Position numbers and translations under genes: made by a program. The notes under the pieces are model-generated. The model did not search any database. It saw nothing but the letters and a program-made list of their open reading frames with translations, and was not told the DNA's origin. Below are positions 15,980-33,878 of a stretch of 64,000 nt of DNA, piece by piece. Each line of letters begins with the position of its first letter. The first letter of the stretch is position 1. The DNA is from Pelagibacterales bacterium SAG-MED47 (lineage in GTDB: Bacteria; Pseudomonadota; Alphaproteobacteria; Pelagibacterales; Pelagibacteraceae): positions 1 through 64,000 of the forward strand of contig JACWEO010000002.1 of assembly GCA_014653355.1 (NCBI GenBank), written 5' to 3'.

Positions 15980-16435
15980 ATGTTTTTATCGACTTTCGAA
16001 AACAAATTGGACAAGAAAGGAAGGGTATCAGTGCCTGCAAGTTTTAGGTCTTATTTATCTAATCTTGGTTACAATGGAGTTGTATGTTATCCATCTTTTA
16101 ATAATCAATCAATAGAGGCATGGCCACAAGATAGATTAGAAAAAATTTCAAATGCAATAGATTCCTTGAGTCCCTTCGAAGAGAAAAGAGATTTTTTTGC
16201 AACATCAATATTATCTGAAAGTGAAAATTTTCAATTTGATAGTGAAGGAAGAATCTCACTTACTCAAAAATTACTAAAACATACAAAAATTAAAAATAAA
16301 ATTTTATTTGTTGGCCAGGGCAAAACTTTCCAAATATGGGAACCAACAATTTTTGAAAAATTTAGGGTTAACGCGAGGAAAAAAGCAAATATGAATCGTG
16401 CAAGTCTTAAGTGGGAGCTTCAATTAAATAAATAA
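15980..16435 (+). CDS. mraZ: Transcriptional regulator MraZ
   Basis: This 151-residue protein is built of two SpoVT/AbrB-like halves. The first is FLSTFENKLDKKGRVSVPASFRSYL; the second is FQFDSEGRISLTQKLLKHTKI. MraZ forms a ring-shaped oligomer and binds repeated TGGG units upstream of the division operon. The matching array lies 20-51 bases before this start. Length is standard. Its gene heads the co-directional run that continues to ligA, and ftsZ follows 15 bases later. Confidence 0.96.
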   Translation: MFLSTFENKLDKKGRVSVPASFRSYLSNLGYNGVVCYPSFNNQSIEAWPQDRLEKISNAIDSLSPFEEKRDFFATSILSESENFQFDSEGRISLTQKLLKHTKIKNKILFVGQGKTFQIWEPTIFEKFRVNARKKANMNRASLKWELQLNK

Positions 16436-16450
16436 AAAGGGGATGATAAG

Positions 16451-17911
16451 ATGACAATTAACTTTAAAACACCAGAAATAAAAGAGTTACAACCAAGACT
16501 TTTAGTAATGGGTATTGGGGGAGCAGGTGGAAATGCTATTAATGAAATGATCGATAATGGAATGCAAGGTGTTGAGTTTATAGCTGTTAATACTGATGCG
16601 CAGGATTTGAAACATAGTAAAGCAAAATCAAAAATTCAAATTGGTTTGAATTTGACCAAAGGTTTAGGAGCAGGAGCTAAGCTTGATATTGGTCAGGCTG
16701 CAGCGGATGAGTCTTTAAATGATATTGTAAATATATTGCAGGGTGCAAACATGGTTTTTATTGCAGCAGGAATGGGTGGTGGAACTGGAACTGGAGCAGC
16801 TCATGTAATTGCTAGAGCCGCAAAAGAATTGAATATTTTAACTGTTGGAGTTGTTACACTTCCTTTTCTATACGAAGGGCCATCTAGAATGAGAAGAGCT
16901 CAAATTGGTCTTGAAGAATTAAGAAAACATGTTGATACAATCATAGTAATTCCAAATCAAAATTTGTTTAAAATTGCAAACGAACAAACTACATTTGAAG
17001 AGTCTTTTAATCTTTCAAATAATGTTTTAATGCATGGAGTTCAAAGTGTAACAGATCTAATGGTTAGACCGGGAATAATCAACTTGGATTTTGCTGATGT
17101 AGAAACTGTTATGGCTTCAATGGGTAAAGCTATGATGGGTACTGGAGAAGCAGAAGGTGATGGCAGAGCGATGCAAGCAACTGAAATGGCAATTAGCAAC
17201 CCACTAATAGATGACTACACATTAAAGGGAGCAAAGGGATTATTAGTAAATATTACAGGTGGTAAAGACTTAAAATTATTTGAGGTTGATGAAGTGGTAA
17301 ATAAAATAAGATCAGAAGTGGAAGCTGATGCAGAAGTTATTATAGGTGCTATTACAGACTCATCACTTGAGGGAAAAATAAGAGTATCAATTGTTGCTAC
17401 CTCTTTAGACAATCAACAACCAGAATCTAAATCAGTTGTTAACATGGTACATAGAATACAAAATCGAAATACTGGGTATTCTGATTTTTCATCAAATACA
17501 ACATCTGCTTCTTTTGCATTTTCAAACAATATTTCCAACCCTGTGTCTCATGGGGCAAATGCTTTAAAACTTGAAAATGAGATCGTTTCTGAAAATTTTA
17601 ATGAAAGTGTTGATGAAGCAAATAACCAGTATCATGAAGAATTATTAAAAAACCAAGAAGCAAAAAATGTTGTCGAAAATACATCTCATGAAAATGAAAT
17701 GTCTTTTTCAGAAGAAGCAATCACTTCATCTGAGCAAGATCAAGAAATTTCAAATGATTTAAAAGAATTTGGTGTTGATACTAACGAACCAGATTTATTT
17801 AGTTCTGAAACCCAAGAACCTAGTTCAGAAGATTTATTAGGGTCATCAAATCATGAAAGTGAAGATGATGATCTTGAAATACCAGCATTTTTAAGAAGAC
17901 AAAAAAATTAA
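16451..17911 (+). CDS. ftsZ: Cell-division GTPase FtsZ
   Basis: This 486-residue tubulin homologue polymerises into the division ring. The GTP-binding tubulin signature GGGTGTG is at about residues 109-115. GIGGAGGNAINEMI lies near the start, and catalytic-loop residues (NLDFADVETVM) are present. A variable acidic linker follows residue 320. The C-terminal peptide DLEIPAFLRRQ is the classical docking site for FtsA and other ring anchors. A clear Shine-Dalgarno (AAGGGG) precedes the ATG. Its position is unusual: it lies between mraZ and rsmH, not after ftsQ/ftsA at the far end of the cluster. Confidence 0.98.
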   Translation: MTINFKTPEIKELQPRLLVMGIGGAGGNAINEMIDNGMQGVEFIAVNTDAQDLKHSKAKSKIQIGLNLTKGLGAGAKLDIGQAAADESLNDIVNILQGANMVFIAAGMGGGTGTGAAHVIARAAKELNILTVGVVTLPFLYEGPSRMRRAQIGLEELRKHVDTIIVIPNQNLFKIANEQTTFEESFNLSNNVLMHGVQSVTDLMVRPGIINLDFADVETVMASMGKAMMGTGEAEGDGRAMQATEMAISNPLIDDYTLKGAKGLLVNITGGKDLKLFEVDEVVNKIRSEVEADAEVIIGAITDSSLEGKIRVSIVATSLDNQQPESKSVVNMVHRIQNRNTGYSDFSSNTTSASFAFSNNISNPVSHGANALKLENEIVSENFNESVDEANNQYHEELLKNQEAKNVVENTSHENEMSFSEEAITSSEQDQEISNDLKEFGVDTNEPDLFSSETQEPSSEDLLGSSNHESEDDDLEIPAFLRRQKN

Positions 17912-18019
17912 TGGTCTTCAAAAAAATAAATGGAAGCCACCATGGTACTGGATATTACAAAACACTATCCAGTACTGCTAAATGAAATAATTAGCATTAT
18001 TACCCCTCAGCATGGTGGC
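17895..18019 (+). promoter_or_regulatory. Nested inverted repeats across the ftsZ/rsmH junction
   Basis: Three perfect inverted pairs are visible. GAAGAC (17895-17900) pairs with GTCTTC (17914-17919) around the ftsZ stop. GCCACCATG (17936-17944) pairs with CATGGTGGC (18011-18019). Inside the latter, GTACTGGATA (17945-17954) pairs with TATCCAGTAC (17966-17975) with an 11-base loop. The last two would bury the second possible rsmH ATG (17942) and the region just after the first (17930). No T tract follows, so a plain terminator is unlikely. A translational control or RNA-processing role is inference. Confidence 0.55.
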
Positions 18020-18940
18020 ACATTTATTGATTGTACTTTTGGACAAGGTGGTTACACAAAAAAAATACTAAGTTATAAAAATACCAAAGTAATAGCTTTA
18101 GATAGAGACCTTGAAAGTAAAAAAAAAGCTGATGAAATTTCAAAAAAATTTGAGGATAGATTTATATTTAAAAATAAAAAATTTAGTCTATTAGACAGCC
18201 TTAAAGTTAAGAATGAAAATATAAGAGCTGTAGTTTTTGATTTAGGATATTCTTATACTCAAATAAAGGACTATAAAAAAGGTTTATCGTTTAATTCAGC
18301 GGGTGATCTTAATATGCAAATGGGGATAAATGATTTTTCGGCAAATGATGTAATAAATAAATTAGATGCTTTTGAACTTGAAAAAATTTTTAAATTCTTT
18401 GGTGATGAACGAGAGGCAAAAAAAATTGCAATCAAAATAGTCAAAGAAAGAAAAATTAAAAAAATTAATACCGAGGTTTTAGTTAAAATAATAGAAAATA
18501 CTAAAAGAAAAAAAAGTTTTAAAACTCATAGTGCCACAAAAGTTTTTCAAGCACTAAGAATTTTTGTTAACAAAGAGATTAGTGAACTAATTCAAGGCCT
18601 CATAGCAGCTACAAAAGTATTAAAAAAAGATGGTACTTTAGCTGTTGTCACTTTTCATTCTTTAGAAGACAAAATAGTTAAATATTTTTTTAAGAGCTTA
18701 TCAGAATATAAAAGTATATCTCGATATTCTCCTAAATTAGATCAACCAGAAACTATATTCAATGTGATTAAAAAAAAACCTATAATTCCATCATCTAAGG
18801 AACTAAAAGAAAATATATCATCAAGATCTGCAAAACTTAGATATGGAATTAAGAAAGAAAATTTTTTTAATTTTGAGACAGATATTTATAAAAAATTTGA
18901 AAATTTAATTACGATTGAGAATTTTGGAAATAAATTATGA
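17930..18940 (+). CDS. rsmH: 16S rRNA (cytosine-1402-N4) methyltransferase
   Basis: This 336-residue S-adenosylmethionine-dependent enzyme methylates N4 of C1402 of 16S rRNA. The family start [10 protein letters not shown] leads into the SAM-binding [16 protein letters not shown]. The substrate region has [21 protein letters not shown], and the C-terminus has [22 protein letters not shown]. The first ATG (17930) and another at 17942 are both possible; the second falls inside a stable inverted repeat. It is the third gene of the dcw operon, with ftsL overlapping its stop by four bases. Confidence 0.96.
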
Positions 18941-20932: not shown

Positions 20933-23785
20933 ATGCTTCTCAAAGATTATATTCCTAAAATAAATAAAAAATATAGTAGAATTTTTTTTTCAGGCATTGC
21001 TTCCGATAGTTCAAAATTAAAAAAAAATAATATTTTTTTTGCGATAAAAGGAGATAAGTTTGATGGAAATGATTATATAAACTCAGCAATCAAAAAAGGT
21101 TCTAAAATAATCATTTCTGAAAAAAAAATTAAAAAAAAAACGGAAAATATAATTTTTATATACTCTTCTAATGTAAGAAAATTATTAGCAGAAACTTCAT
21201 ATAAAATTTTAGAAAAAAGACCAAAAAAAATTGTTGCTGTTACCGGAACTAATGGAAAGTCATCAATAGCAGATTTCTATTACCAAATATTAAGTTTGAA
21301 TTTAAAAAAAGTTGCATCAATTGGAACTATAGGTATTAGATATAAAGGTAGAAAACGACCTTTAAATAATACTACTTTAGACCCAATTAAATTATCTTAT
21401 ATACTAAATGTTCTAAGAAAAAAAAAAATTGAATATGTTATCTTGGAAGCGTCGAGTCATGGTTTGAGACAAAATAGGCTTGATGGGTTGTTGTTTAACA
21501 TAGGGATATTTACAAATTTATCTCATGATCACTTAGATTATCATAAAAATATGAAAAATTATCTTAATTCAAAATTATATTTATTTAATAACTTAATCCA
21601 AAAAAAAGGAAGTATAATCAGTGATGCTCAAATTCCTCAAATTAAAAAAATAAGAGATATTTCAAAAAAAAAAAAAATTAATCTAAGTCTAATATTTGAT
21701 AAAAGTAACGGTATTGAACTGATTGCACATAAATTCTTAGGTGAGAAACAAATTTTAGAAATTAGATTTAATAAAAAAAAATATATCATTGAATTAAATC
21801 TGATAGGAAAAATACAAGTAAATAATATTTTAATGGCAATATTAGCTGCTAATAAAAGTGGGATTAAATTTAAAAAGATAATTGAAGTTATCAATAAATT
21901 AAAACCTGTCGAGGGAAGGCTCGAAAAAATAGGAAAAATAAGAAATAATAGTAGAGTTATTTTAGACTACGCTCATACGCCTGAAGCGTTAAAATTAGCT
22001 TTATTAAATTTAAAAGAACAATTTCCATCAAACAGCTTAAGTGTATTGTTTGGATGTGGTGGAGATAGAGATTTTAAAAAAAGACCTATTATGGGAAGAG
22101 TAGCAGAAAAATATGCAGATAGAATTTATTTAACAGACGACAATCCTAGAAATGAAATATCATCCAAAATTAGATCAGAAATTAAAAAAGGGATTAAAAA
22201 TTTTAAATTTAAGGAATTTTCTGATAGAAAAAAAGCAATTAACGAGGCTGTTAGAGATCTCAATACTGGAGATATATTGCTAGTGGCAGGCAAAGGTCAT
22301 GAAAAAATTCAAGATTATGGAAAGAGAAAATTATTTTTTTCTGATAAAGATGTTATATTAAGGTCAATAAAATTAAAAAACAGTTCTTTATCAAAAGATA
22401 TCAAACTAAACATAATTAAGGAGGAGTCTAAGTCATCTATATCTAAGAACCTCAGTATTAAGAATATTTCTATTAATTCAAAAAGTATAAATAAAAATGA
22501 TATTTTTTTTGCTATCAAGGGAAAAAGGGTTGACGGAAACAAATTTGTTTCAGAAGCTTTTAAAAATAAATCGAGCTTAGCAATCGTTAACCAAATTAAT
22601 AAAAACTATCCATTAACTAAACAAATTAAAGTTCAAAATACTCTTCATTTTTTATCAAAGTGCTCATCAATATTCAGAGAAAACACTCAAGCAAAAATAA
22701 TTTCAATTACAGGAAGTTGTGGCAAAACAACTCTGAAAGATATGATTAGTTTTACATTAAATAAAATATCAAAAATAAGTTATTCACCCAAATCTTTTAA
22801 TAATCAGTATGGTGTACCATTAAGCTTGATAAACTTAAAACAAAACGATGAGTTTGGAGTTTTTGAAGTAGGTATGGATAAAAAGGGTGAGATAGATAAA
22901 TTAACAAAAATAATCAAACCTGATTTGGGGATTATAACAAATATTAGTTATGCTCATTCAAAAAATTTCAGAAATATAGATCAGATAGCTGAAGCTAAAG
23001 CTGAAATTATAAAAAATATTAAAAAAAATGGAATTATTGTTCTTAACATGGATGACAAGTTTTATAATTTTCATAAAAATTTTGCACTTAAAAGAAAATT
23101 AAAAGTAATTTCTTTTGGAATTAAGAATAAATCTTCAACTGTATATTTAGAGAAAATTAAAAAAATTAATAATTATTACAAACTATTTATAAATATAGAT
23201 GGTTTACTAATTTCTTTTTATTATTTCAATAATAACTTAAGCCATATGTATAATATATTAGCCACTCTAGCTTCAATATTTGTATTCAAAGATATAAAAA
23301 AATTAAAGAAAAATAATTTTCTTAACTTTAAAATTCCTAATGGCAGAGGTAATATTTTAAAAGTAAAGATAAAAGATAAAAAATTTTTTTTAGTAGATGA
23401 AACTTATAATTCAAATCCTCTTTCACTTAAAACAGCTATTGAAAATTTTGATAAGATACAATTAAAAAATTCTAAAAAGTATTTGATTTTAGGTGATATG
23501 CTCGAACTAGGTAAAAATTCTCTCAAACAACATAAATTAATTAGTAAGATTATTAATAGAACTAAAATTAATCACGTGTATGTAATTGGAAAATATATTA
23601 AAGAGACTTTTAAAGGGTTAAAAATAAATAAAAAGGCAAAAATTTTGAATAATAAGTCTAGTATACTTGATTTGATTTATACAAATTTAAATAATAACGA
23701 TTATTTGATGATTAAAGGATCTAATTCTACTGGTCTTCATAAAATAATAACTAATTTAAAAAAAAGAAATACTTATGTTATTTGA
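20933..23785 (+). CDS. Fused MurE-MurF ligase (UDP-MurNAc-tripeptide plus pentapeptide synthetase)
   Basis: One 950-residue frame holds two complete Mur ligases. The MurE half has its P-loop TGTNGKSS near residue 105 and DDNPR near 402; DNPR marks meso-diaminopimelate as the added amino acid. A linker of about 45 residues, rich in Ser and Lys (KNSSLSKDIKLNIIKEESKS), joins it to the MurF half. That half has P-loop TGSCGKTT near residue 595 and the late segment VDETYNSNPLSLKTAI, and it adds D-Ala-D-Ala. No stop or frameshift lies between, so this is a real fusion. It replaces the separate murE and murF found in most dcw clusters. It overlaps mraY by 11 bases. Confidence 0.95.
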   Translation: MLLKDYIPKINKKYSRIFFSGIASDSSKLKKNNIFFAIKGDKFDGNDYINSAIKKGSKIIISEKKIKKKTENIIFIYSSNVRKLLAETSYKILEKRPKKIVAVTGTNGKSSIADFYYQILSLNLKKVASIGTIGIRYKGRKRPLNNTTLDPIKLSYILNVLRKKKIEYVILEASSHGLRQNRLDGLLFNIGIFTNLSHDHLDYHKNMKNYLNSKLYLFNNLIQKKGSIISDAQIPQIKKIRDISKKKKINLSLIFDKSNGIELIAHKFLGEKQILEIRFNKKKYIIELNLIGKIQVNNILMAILAANKSGIKFKKIIEVINKLKPVEGRLEKIGKIRNNSRVILDYAHTPEALKLALLNLKEQFPSNSLSVLFGCGGDRDFKKRPIMGRVAEKYADRIYLTDDNPRNEISSKIRSEIKKGIKNFKFKEFSDRKKAINEAVRDLNTGDILLVAGKGHEKIQDYGKRKLFFSDKDVILRSIKLKNSSLSKDIKLNIIKEESKSSISKNLSIKNISINSKSINKNDIFFAIKGKRVDGNKFVSEAFKNKSSLAIVNQINKNYPLTKQIKVQNTLHFLSKCSSIFRENTQAKIISITGSCGKTTLKDMISFTLNKISKISYSPKSFNNQYGVPLSLINLKQNDEFGVFEVGMDKKGEIDKLTKIIKPDLGIITNISYAHSKNFRNIDQIAEAKAEIIKNIKKNGIIVLNMDDKFYNFHKNFALKRKLKVISFGIKNKSSTVYLEKIKKINNYYKLFINIDGLLISFYYFNNNLSHMYNILATLASIFVFKDIKKLKKNNFLNFKIPNGRGNILKVKIKDKKFFLVDETYNSNPLSLKTAIENFDKIQLKNSKKYLILGDMLELGKNSLKQHKLISKIINRTKINHVYVIGKYIKETFKGLKINKKAKILNNKSSILDLIYTNLNNNDYLMIKGSNSTGLHKIITNLKKRNTYVI

Positions 23786-30632: not shown

Positions 30633-31547
30633 TTGAATAAAAAAATATTAATTATTTCGGGTGGAATATCGAAAGAAAGGTTAATTAGCCTTGAAACAGG
30701 AAGACAAGTAGCAAAAGAACTTAATAGAAATGGATATGATATTAAAATATCTGAACCAGATTTCAGATTGCTTGATGTTATTAAAACTTTTAAGCCCAAA
30801 ATTATCTTTAATGCTTTACATGGTCAGTTTGGTGAAGATGGGTACATTCAGACTATTTTAGAGACTACAGGAGTACCATATACACATTCAGGTGTAATTT
30901 CCTCTGCTATTGCTATGAATAAAGAAATTTCAAAAAAAATTTTTATAAAAAACAGAATTTTAACTCCTAAATATATTACTTACTCTTTTGATAAATCTAA
31001 GCAAATTTTAATAAATTTAATTGAAAAAAAATTGAAATTTCCAGTTGTTATTAAGCCTATAAATGAGGGGTCAAGTGTTAATGTATTCATTTGTACTAAA
31101 TTTAATCTCATGAGAAAATTGGAATTATTAAAGAATTATAATAAAATAATTATTGAAGAGTTTATTTCTGGCCGAGAAATTCAAGCTGCAATTATAGGAT
31201 CAAAAAAACTTGGTGCCATTGAATTAAAACCAAAAAGAAAATTTTATGATTATCAGGCAAAATATAATTCTAGTGCAAAGACACAGCATATTATTCCGGT
31301 GGATTTATCAAAAAAAAATTACAAAAAATTAATGGATTTAAGTTTGAAAGCTCATAAATTAATTGGATGCAAAGGTGTTACACGATCTGATTTCAAATAC
31401 CATAAAGGAAAATTTTATCTTCTAGAAATTAATACCCAACCTGGGATGACAAGTCTCTCTCTAGTGCCTGAAATAGCTGCTTTTAAAGGTATTAATTTCA
31501 TTAAACTGATTGAATTAATTTTGAAAGATGCCTTTAGCAAAAAATAA
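30633..31547 (+). CDS. ddl: D-alanine--D-alanine ligase
   Basis: This 304-residue ATP-grasp enzyme makes D-Ala-D-Ala for MurF. It starts with TTG (30633), two bases after the murB stop. Motifs are ISGGISKERLISLETG, ALHGQFGEDGYIQ, then PVVIKPINEGSSVNVF and IIEEFISGREIQAAI in the ATP-grasp core. The C-terminal LLEINTQPGMTSLSLVPE carries the metal ligands. Length is normal. It overlaps ftsQ by 20 bases. Confidence 0.96.
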   Translation: MNKKILIISGGISKERLISLETGRQVAKELNRNGYDIKISEPDFRLLDVIKTFKPKIIFNALHGQFGEDGYIQTILETTGVPYTHSGVISSAIAMNKEISKKIFIKNRILTPKYITYSFDKSKQILINLIEKKLKFPVVIKPINEGSSVNVFICTKFNLMRKLELLKNYNKIIIEEFISGREIQAAIIGSKKLGAIELKPKRKFYDYQAKYNSSAKTQHIIPVDLSKKNYKKLMDLSLKAHKLIGCKGVTRSDFKYHKGKFYLLEINTQPGMTSLSLVPEIAAFKGINFIKLIELILKDAFSKK

Positions 31548-32199
31548 AAAAATTTTAGCATATTTTTTTTTACTCTTATTGTTTGGAACGATAAATAATA
31601 AAAATATTCAAATATTTGAAATCTTCAAAATCAAGAAAATAGAAGTAGTAGGCCTAACTGAAAAAGAGAATGCGGAAATATCAAAAAGTTTTGAGGTATT
31701 AAAAGTTTATAACTTATTTTTTTTAAACAGAATTCACCTTGATGAATTAATGGAAAAGTATAATCATATTGAACAATATTATATTTTTAAAGAATATCCT
31801 TCATCTTTGAATGTAAAACTTAAAAGGACTAAATTTTTAGCTTATATGAGCAAAGATAACAAAAATTTTTATGTTGGAAATAATAGAAAACTTATAATTG
31901 CAAAAGCTGAGGTAAAAAATTTACCTGTCATCTATGGGGATTTAAAAATAAATGAATTTTTCAGATTAAAAAAAATTATCGATAAATCTAACTTTAAATT
32001 TTACGAAATAAAAAATTTATTTTTGTTTCCTTCTGGTCGATGGGATATAGAGACAAATTCAGGGATATTGATTAAATTACCAAAATTAGAAATCGTAAAA
32101 TCATTAAACTTATACAAAGATTTATTAAAAAAGAAAAAATTAGAAAATATGAGGATAATAGATTTTAGACAATTTAATCAGGTAATTATAAATGGATAA
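31528..32199 (+). CDS. ftsQ: Cell-division protein FtsQ
   Basis: This 223-residue bitopic membrane protein has a short cytoplasmic N-terminus and one helix (ILAYFFLLLLFGTI). The periplasmic POTRA-like part contains FKIKKIEVVGLTEKENAEI, and the beta domain has LPVIYGD and FPSGRWDIETNSGILIKLP. FtsQ links early and late division proteins. It is shorter than E. coli FtsQ (276) and its cytoplasmic tail is nearly absent. It overlaps ddl by 20 bases and the next gene by eight. Confidence 0.88.
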   Translation: MPLAKNKKILAYFFLLLLFGTINNKNIQIFEIFKIKKIEVVGLTEKENAEISKSFEVLKVYNLFFLNRIHLDELMEKYNHIEQYYIFKEYPSSLNVKLKRTKFLAYMSKDNKNFYVGNNRKLIIAKAEVKNLPVIYGDLKINEFFRLKKIIDKSNFKFYEIKNLFLFPSGRWDIETNSGILIKLPKLEIVKSLNLYKDLLKKKKLENMRIIDFRQFNQVIING

Positions 32200-32893
32200 T
32201 ATATCTATTTTTAAAACCTATCTTTATATTAGTAAGAGAAAATTTATTTTATGTGTTGTTCAAATTAATGACCTTAAAGTAATTTATAAAAAAGAATTTT
32301 CTTTTCAAAGTGAATCAAATGAATTGGAATTCAATAAATTACAGGAATTTCTTGATGATAATGTTCTTAAATTAGAAAAAACTTTAAAACATTTTATTGA
32401 GAATATTATTATTGTTCTTGATACCAGTGATTTTTTTTCTATTTATCTATCAGTTAAAAATAATAATAGAGGAAATGTTCTTAAATTAGAAAATTTATCT
32501 TATTCATTAAAAGATGCAAGATATCAATGTGAGAAAACCATAGAGAATAATAAATTGATTCATATGATTATTGAAAACTATCAAATAGATGATGAAAATT
32601 ACAATTTTTTACCTGAGAAATTAAATTGTAATAATTTTTCTTTAGATATTAAATTTACATGTCTTCCACTTGCTCTGATTAAAAGTTTTGAGAGTTCTTT
32701 AGAAAAATATCAAATTTCTATAAATCAAATTATTTGTGCTGATTACGTTAAAAAATTTTTCAAGGATAACACTGATTTATTTGAAAAAGTAAGACAAATA
32801 ACTGAGGGTTGTAATCCAAATGAGGTGAAATTTTATAATAAAAACTTAAAGAATCATGGTTTTTTTGAAAAATTTTTCAATTTTTTTAGATAA
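32192..32893 (+). CDS. Candidate shortened FtsA-like cell-division protein
   Basis: This 233-residue protein has no obvious named match, but it sits exactly where ftsA normally lies, between ftsQ and lpxC. By eye its residues 68-190 follow the plan of FtsA subdomain 1C and its flanks. IENIIIVLDTSDFFSIYLSV matches the SSVYLALSG strand region, LIHMIIENYQIDDE matches HVIPQEYAIDY, and IKFTCLPLALIKSFESSLEKYQISINQIICADY matches the VHLITCHNDM...GLKVDQLIFAG segment. The rest of an actin-like FtsA (phosphate-binding DIGGGT, subdomains 2A and 2B) is missing. The last 14 residues (NHGFFEKFFNFFR) look like an amphipathic membrane-targeting helix. If correct, it lacks ATP binding and the FtsZ-docking subdomain. 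Homology is weak and needs profile or structure comparison. Confidence 0.6.
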   Translation: MDNISIFKTYLYISKRKFILCVVQINDLKVIYKKEFSFQSESNELEFNKLQEFLDDNVLKLEKTLKHFIENIIIVLDTSDFFSIYLSVKNNNRGNVLKLENLSYSLKDARYQCEKTIENNKLIHMIIENYQIDDENYNFLPEKLNCNNFSLDIKFTCLPLALIKSFESSLEKYQISINQIICADYVKKFFKDNTDLFEKVRQITEGCNPNEVKFYNKNLKNHGFFEKFFNFFR

Positions 32894-32957: not shown

Positions 32958-33878
32958 GTGTCTGCGCTAAATCAAAAAACTGTAAGAAATACCATAAATT
33001 TTAATGGAGTTGGTCTTCATAGTGGTGAGTCTGTGAATTTAAATATCAAACCAGCTGAACCAAATTCTGGAATAGTTTTTAGAAGAATAGATTTAAGAAA
33101 TAACAATTTAGTATATCCTAGTTTTGAAAATGTCAGCAATACCTCTTTGAATACGACAATCACAAATGAGTATGGCGCAAAGGTTTCTACAATAGAACAT
33201 TTAATGGGTGCATTATTTGGCTTAGGAGTAGATAATGCTGTTATTGAAATAGATAACATCGAAGTTCCTATTTTAGATGGATCTGCAAAAGTATTCATAG
33301 AAAAAATCCTTTCAACTGGATTTGATATTAGTTCTTCGCCAATTAAGATAATTAAAATAAATAAAAAAATTGAATTTAAAGATGGTGAAAGAATGATTTC
33401 TATTGAACCATCAAAATTAAGTTTAGATATTGATTTTGAATTAAAATATGAAAATCCAGTTATAGGTAACCAAAGAAATAAGATAAATTTATATGAAGAT
33501 AATCTTGATGATATATTCAATTCAAGAACTTTTTGTCTATTTGAAGATATTGAAATAATAAAAAAAAAAGGTTTAGCTAAAGGTGGAAGCTTAGATAATG
33601 CTATAGTAGTTAAAGATAATAAAATTTTAAACGAAAACGGCCTTAGAAATAATAAAGAGTTTGTAAACCATAAAATCTTAGACTGCATTGGGGATCTTTA
33701 TACATCAGGATATAGAATGCTTGCTAAAGTTAAGTGTTCTCAAGGAGGACACTATCTTTCCAACGAATTATTAAGAAAACTGTTTAATAATAATGAAAAT
33801 TTTTCAATTTTAGAGATAAAAGAAAAGAATTTGCCACACACATACATCAAAAAAAATCTATTTAAATCAATAGCATAA
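32958..33878 (+). CDS. lpxC: UDP-3-O-acyl-N-acetylglucosamine deacetylase
   Basis: This 306-residue zinc amidase commits UDP-acyl-GlcNAc to lipid A. It starts with GTG (32958). The N-terminal NTINFNGVGLHSGESVNLNIKP is diagnostic. STIEHLMGALFGLGVDNAVIEID carries the first Zn His, and FVNHKILDCIGDLY holds the second His and the Asp. The terminal GGHYLSNELLRKLF contains the catalytic-region His. It is 64 bases downstream of the FtsA-like gene, with a possible promoter in the gap. Its presence supports a lipopolysaccharide-bearing outer membrane. Confidence 0.97.
   Translation: MSALNQKTVRNTINFNGVGLHSGESVNLNIKPAEPNSGIVFRRIDLRNNNLVYPSFENVSNTSLNTTITNEYGAKVSTIEHLMGALFGLGVDNAVIEIDNIEVPILDGSAKVFIEKILSTGFDISSSPIKIIKINKKIEFKDGERMISIEPSKLSLDIDFELKYENPVIGNQRNKINLYEDNLDDIFNSRTFCLFEDIEIIKKKGLAKGGSLDNAIVVKDNKILNENGLRNNKEFVNHKILDCIGDLYTSGYRMLAKVKCSQGGHYLSNELLRKLFNNNENFSILEIKEKNLPHTYIKKNLFKSIA

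Follow-up and report, generated by a model that had tools for sequence, protein, structure and literature searches.

The DNA analysed here (the window) is a stretch of 64,000 nucleotides from a Pelagibacter-like genome and carries a complete dcw-type cluster in the order mraZ, ftsZ, rsmH, an ftsL-like ORF, ftsI, a murE–murF fusion, mraY, murD, ftsW, murG, murC, murB, ddl, ftsQ, an ORF of 233 codons and lpxC. Genes were named by reading of the ORFs, except for ftsQ (Pfam FtsQ_DivIB_C and POTRA_1) and ftsZ (Pfam Tubulin and FtsZ_C). MurE and MurF are apparently joined in one 950-aa protein (window positions 20933–23785), in which two Mur ligase halves could be read. The 233-residue ORF occupies positions 32192–32893 of the forward strand, on which ddl, ftsQ, lpxC and ftsZ also lie, and starts with ATG. 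Its start overlaps the end of ftsQ (31528–32199) by 8 nt (junction ATGGATAA), and synteny identifies ddl (30633–31547) and lpxC (32958–33878) as the fixed neighbours upstream of ftsQ and downstream of the ORF, respectively. The position and flanks are those given in a sequence-only reading of this DNA, which had placed the ORF in the classical ftsA slot between ftsQ and lpxC. Since only 64 bp separate the ORF from lpxC, there is no space downstream for a missing second half. In loci with complete flanks, the gene order is ddl–ftsQ–X–lpxC, where X is either the short ORF or, in sister species, full-length FtsA. Among close relatives (L045 and L050, for example), synonymous divergence at this boundary increases from 0.03–0.05 in ddl and ftsQ to 0.17 in ftsA and 0.44 in lpxC, and six assemblies break within ftsA; together, these observations make a recombination edge at the ftsQ–ftsA–lpxC boundary likely.

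The window protein by itself gave no match in single-sequence scans with Pfam and NCBIfam, so that annotation would miss a short ftsA; having no Pfam match at all, it also lacks PF04472, and SepF was discarded as its identity. In a reverse test, an HMM made from full-length FtsAs of other genera and of the sister family matched the window protein (E = 2.1e-18) in two pieces, with HMM positions 10–191 aligned to residues 11–187, positions 376–408 aligned to residues 201–232, and nothing between them, a skip of about 184 HMM positions. The same HMM matched 55 of 56 short forms, while the reciprocal HMM of short forms matched 0 of 1000 shuffled sequences. When a profile of short forms only was compared with the PDB, E. 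coli FtsA (7q6d) was the first match (E = 1.1e-4) and T. maritima FtsA the third, and PF02491 (SHS2_FTSA, the 1C domain) was matched singly by 13 of 27 short members (best 6e-5). At the other end of the protein, a 44-aa HMM built from the C-termini of seven long sisters matched the C-terminus of every one of the 56 short forms, with E = 1e-5 for the window protein and values down to 2e-13. A single-sequence search of 60 related genomes detected orthologues at the same place in two sizes, 231–237 aa and 371–394 aa, and the long orthologues that were scanned match the FtsA family.

Structure prediction pointed to the same family. An AlphaFold (AF2) model of the window protein, computed with 27 short forms, reached a pLDDT of 87.8 and a pTM of 0.81, and in a Foldseek comparison with the PDB its 19 best matches were all FtsA (E from 4.6e-13 to 4e-8); PilM and EpsL/GspL came next. 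A confident match to a non-FtsA fold would have refuted the initial proposal; the confident match obtained was to FtsA and to no other fold. A GspL/EpsL identity was rejected, because it has only the fold match in its favour, the locus is a division cluster and not one for type II secretion, and no transmembrane-like stretch is apparent from reading of the ORF. In the AF2 model of a full-length sister (L011, pLDDT 84), the same elements occur in the same order as in the short protein, from which the sister's stretch from strand E194 to strand E326 is absent.

Combining these data, the protein can be divided as follows, with the first two boundaries being approximate. Residues 1–79 (positions 32192–32428) form the first part of subdomain 1A, with three strands, a helix and a strand, as judged from the AF2 secondary structure compared with L011 and from the HMM alignment over positions 10–191. 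Within it, the phosphate-1 loop (DFGSSK; residues 12–17, positions 32225–32242) now reads YISKRK. In the alignment columns of D11 and G13 (numbered as in the full-length sister), the long forms have D/E in 46 of 46 and G in 41 of 46 cases, whereas 56 short forms have mixed residues there; the loop is lost. Subdomain 1C (the SHS2 domain) spans residues 80–158 (positions 32429–32665), as indicated by the PF02491 matches and by alignment of the short-only profile to residues 72–196 of 7q6d. The chain then returns into subdomain 1A with a helix, a strand and a helix carrying a near-invariant Y185 (residues 159–189, positions 32666–32758) and reaches the deletion junction (residues 190–200, positions 32759–32791), where the roughly 184 HMM positions of domain II are missing and where the phosphate 2 and adenosine motifs would have been located. 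Models of domain II and of the start of 2A gave no significant match to the short forms. An initial MAFFT alignment had suggested that the short protein ends at the start of 2A, but this was discarded on account of that null result and of the C-terminal HMM, which matches all 56 short forms there. By the C-terminal HMM, residues 201–222 (positions 32792–32857) are the counterpart of the final helix of 1A and of the linker G-x-N-x-x-E-V in the C-terminal part of FtsA. They are followed by GFFEKFFNFFR (residues 223–233, positions 32858–32890), an amphipathic, putatively membrane-targeting helix with a hydrophobic moment of 0.76, which is conserved in 56 of 56 short forms (mean moment 0.70).

The absence of a phosphate-binding loop and of any 2A/2B equivalent, and the amphipathic appearance of the C-terminal end, had all been noted in the sequence-only reading and stand after these comparisons, and its main point is supported. 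Its description of the protein as a subdomain 1C pattern proved too narrow: 1C is kept, but so is the whole of domain I as a scaffold. Except for the nucleotide loop, the strands and helices of 1A that surround 1C are present, as is its final helix. Its term 'ATP-independent' follows from the sequence, in which the phosphate-1 loop is lost and the other ATP motifs are deleted, whereas the retention of protein contacts and membrane attachment is an inference. Membership in the FtsA family is supported by the locus, by sequence homology, by a 1C (SHS2) domain inserted in 1A and by the C-terminal amphipathic helix (known from sequence and hydrophobic moment only), whereas domain II (2A and 2B) and the actin-type ATP motifs phosphate 1, phosphate 2 and adenosine are missing. 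We conclude from homology and modelling that the ORF is an orthologue of FtsA, an ftsA in its ancestral place from which domain II, about 184 residues that carry the site for the FtsZ tail and one half of the ATP cleft, has been cut out. The remaining ATP loop in 1A is, by the same evidence, eroded, leaving domain I (the 1A scaffold and 1C), the last 1A helix and the C-terminal amphipathic helix.

To see how widely the short form occurs, 297 genomes of the family were surveyed, 242 of which gave a match. The window's genus contains 57 intact short forms (220–245 aa) and 28 long forms, while in the other genera sampled the matches are all full-length, apart from frames cut at contig ends. In the proposed comparison with other SAR11 genomes, dozens of species proved to carry the short form at this locus. 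It is not SAR11-wide, since the full-length protein is kept by many members of the genus and by every other genus sampled. Short forms are present in the single-contig genomes G063, G077, G095 and G123 and are thus not artefacts of metagenome assembly; a long form is encoded in another single-contig genome (G086). Further shrinkage or loss of the gene was considered and rejected, because frames of 76–170 aa in six genomes are found at contig ends and, of the seven unmatched species of the genus (at least 90% complete), five lack lpxC as well and two (G129 and G168) have lpxC near a contig break. Among the matches listed in a class-wide SHS2_FTSA search, which were part of 360, none was clearly a short frame, apart from those at contig ends. 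Several nearly complete Alphaproteobacteria genomes of 0.9–1.5 Mb (e.g. G377, G409, G508, G523 and G530) had no SHS2_FTSA match; further FtsA losses or strong divergence are possible there.

A quick tree of the flanking genes ddl, ftsQ and lpxC has the long form as the ancestral state, and a single supported clade holds the short forms along with seven long ones. In a tree of the FtsA N-terminal part, one branch separates the short forms from the rest with moderate support (SH-aLRT 89). The flank-gene tree had at first suggested three or more independent losses, but this was dropped, since a single short-form clade is not rejected against the flank-gene tree by the AU test (p = 0.16). As far as such trees can tell, the deletion most likely happened once, within the Pelagibacter-like genus and from a full-length ancestor. 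A literature search, whose scope left out most subscription papers, turned up no account of a truncated SAR11 FtsA.

Between close pairs, dN/dS was 0.14–0.31 for short ftsA, compared with 0.14–0.30 for full-length FtsA, 0.08–0.30 for FtsQ and 0.04–0.13 for LpxC, which places the short gene under purifying selection. At equal LpxC divergence (0.70 bin), identity over the FtsA N-terminal part was 0.34 among short and 0.42 among long forms, so that the short forms evolve somewhat faster. Judging from substitution patterns, short ftsA is a working gene that is somewhat less constrained than the full-length form. Two genomes have a frameshift in short ftsA, in both cases at a run of A: the single-contig genome G012 (locus L075, positions ~1660–1675) and G312 (L074, reverse strand, ~1858–1870). 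Sequencing error, recent mutation and slippage cannot be distinguished at these positions. The faster evolution and the two frameshifts leave room for the possibility that constraint may have weakened.

The ftsZ gene lies at positions 16451–17911, between mraZ (15980–16435) and rsmH (17930–18940), as had been observed from the sequence, but its position at the operon head is unrelated to the short ftsA: it lies ∼14–16 kb upstream of ftsA in genomes with short and with full-length ftsA alike. This similar spacing identifies the cluster-head ftsZ as an older trait of the family and led us to reject a move of ftsZ as compensation for the shortening. The C-terminal tail peptide of FtsZ (DLEIPAFLRRQKN, positions 17870–17908) is intact and, in a comparison of 29 tails, was identical in 29 of 29 apart from a variable last residue, irrespective of the form of ftsA in the genome; the claim that FtsZ keeps its FtsA-docking tail, DLEIPAFLRRQ, accordingly holds. 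A second conserved linear motif was observed in the FtsZ linker (residues 436–450, positions 17756–17800, DLKEFGVDTNEPDLF), ∼25 residues before the tail. It occurs as [GD]L[EKRS][EN]F... in all 29 FtsZs read, in a linker that is otherwise variable and acidic, and it reads DLKEFGVD in most short-form genomes versus GLENF in long-form genomes. This motif is possibly a second docking site.

A full-length ftsA elsewhere in the genome would have refuted the sequence-only reading. No second FtsA was found in the window's own genome (90.75% complete), in which FtsA models match only MreB and DnaK, nor in the single-contig short-form genomes G012, G063, G077, G095 and G123. Likewise, a search of 18 short-form genomes for FtsA or domain II outside this locus again brought up only MreB and DnaK, and supply of domain II in trans was rejected because no separate domain II was found in the genomes searched. 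In most short-form genomes, no FtsA-like actin other than MreB was detected; in two, G156 and G208, MreB itself was not found, possibly owing to assembly gaps. Alternative anchors for FtsZ were sought among SepF, FtsE, ZapA and SPOR-domain proteins, with ZipA outside the scope of the search. In 14 SAR11 genomes, including that of the window, neither SepF (PF04472) nor FtsE gave a match over the cut-off and no FtsN was found by its SPOR domain, whether the genome was short- or long-form; the stronger SPOR match of the window's own genome is an RlpA-type lipoprotein. ZapA is present in all 14, in short- and long-form genomes alike. None of the four was therefore retained as a replacement anchor. 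Lacking an FtsN-type SPOR protein, SepF and FtsE over the cut-off in these 14 genomes, the SAR11 divisome looks strongly reduced overall.

In E. coli FtsA, 2B binds FtsZ, 1C recruits FtsN, 1A binds the membrane and self-assembly proceeds through 1A–1C and 2A–2B contacts; moreover, FtsA that cannot self-interact binds and recruits FtsN better (PMC8998562; PMC9426451). On this assignment, short FtsA retains what serves recruitment and membrane binding, and the parts for anchoring, ATP and assembly are gone; given the site map and the loss of the self-assembly parts, we take it to be a constitutively depolymerised recruiter. Its C-terminal helix would attach it to the inner membrane, and it would be unable to bind nucleotide, to form actin-like filaments without the 2A–2B interfaces or to bind the FtsZ tail in the known way, and, being permanently depolymerised, would present its 1A and 1C faces to divisome partners. 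Since no SPOR-type FtsN was found, FtsW/FtsI, FtsQLB or FtsK are the candidate partners left. FtsZ itself would have to be tethered by an unidentified other binder of its conserved tail or by a new contact with domain I. We put the probability that short FtsA is such a non-polymerising, nucleotide-free, membrane-bound lobe recruiting other divisome proteins at roughly 0.65. The function is inferred, as there are no data on membrane binding, partners or localisation, and the failure to find the classical 1C partner FtsN by its SPOR domain counts against the recruiter model.

Alternatively, domain I could have gained a new site for the FtsZ tail, and the short protein would then still be the membrane anchor of FtsZ, without 2B, ATP or polymerisation. 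The strictly kept tail DLEIPAFLRRQKN in short-form genomes, the retained membrane helix and the lack of SepF, and of FtsE over the cut-off, in 14 genomes are consistent with this idea. The tail is, however, equally kept in genomes with full-length FtsA, and in bacteria generally it serves several partners, so that its conservation does not point to the short protein; we regard a new tail site as unlikely. The loss of every biochemical hallmark of FtsA (the ATP loop and 2A/2B) and a drift faster than that of full-length forms would also fit a gene that has left division for another membrane role, such as regulating FtsQ, LpxC or peptidoglycan synthesis. Yet the gene remains inside the division and cell-wall cluster and overlaps ftsQ, no other FtsA was found in 18 short-form genomes that could take over, and the domain I fold and membrane tail are retained, which leaves a departure from division rather unlikely.

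The somewhat faster evolution and the frameshifts in G012 and G312 raise the question of whether short ftsA is merely a decaying, functionless relic. Both frameshifts occur at A runs with the downstream frame otherwise intact, as for sequencing or assembly error or very recent mutation, and 57 intact copies of nearly constant length with dN/dS of 0.14–0.31 make a relic very improbable. Scarcely credible, finally, is a split actin-like module in which domain I is completed in trans, for example by MreB. Its attraction is that most short-form genomes offer MreB as the only FtsA-like actin found, but no separately encoded domain II was found in the genomes searched, the half that remains has lost its ATP-loop residues too, so that a rebuilt ATP site is not expected, and MreB was not found in short-form G156 and G208, although assembly gaps could account for this. 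We thus retain the depolymerised recruiter as the preferred reading.

FtsA has three supposed jobs, which are hard to separate in E. coli: anchoring of FtsZ (2B), ATP-dependent polymerisation and recruitment of late proteins (1A/1C). Here, evolution would have removed the parts for anchoring and polymerisation from a gene still under selection, and the full-length sister species provide matched pairs. We think it probable, on balance, that a large branch of one of the sea's most abundant bacterial groups divides with an FtsA lacking the ATP site, the filament interfaces and the FtsZ-binding subdomain. If so, a single genus would have replaced the FtsA–FtsZ link, which is regarded as central to most bacterial divisomes, and the recruiter role would have been split from the anchor role in nature. 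The division machinery of the short-form branch must then be wired differently, raising the question of what holds the Z-ring to the membrane in an ecologically dominant group.

Among known systems, full-length FtsA (T. maritima 1e4f/4a2a, E. coli 7q6d and the Pelagibacter-like protein of G086, L083) shares with the short form the locus, the domain I fold with 1C, the last 1A helix, the C-terminal amphipathic helix and orthologous descent, but the short form lacks 2A, 2B and the phosphate loops and hence the known FtsZ-tail site, the ATP site and the actin-type filament. PilM of the type IV pilus has an FtsA-like fold and forms the second-best group of fold matches; unlike short FtsA, it retains domain II and ATP, and it is not known to carry a comparable membrane helix. 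The cytoplasmic domain of EpsL/GspL from type II secretion (1w97, 4pht), the next-best fold after FtsA and PilM, is likewise a short (∼225 aa), membrane-tied actin-like relative, but it is not an orthologue and acts in a different pathway; no counterparts of its transmembrane segment or its secretion partners are known for short FtsA. SepF serves other bacteria and archaea as an alternative membrane anchor of FtsZ; it is not homologous to short FtsA, and the 14 genomes searched did not yield it. Superfission mutants such as FtsA R286W (FtsA*) are laboratory FtsAs that do not self-interact and expose 1C (PMC9426451; PMC8998562), but they arise from point mutations and retain 2B, the ATP site and binding of FtsZ. 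Short FtsA is thus a variant of the known FtsA family and not a new kind of system, and its interest lies in a natural separation of FtsA functions in a very abundant lineage.
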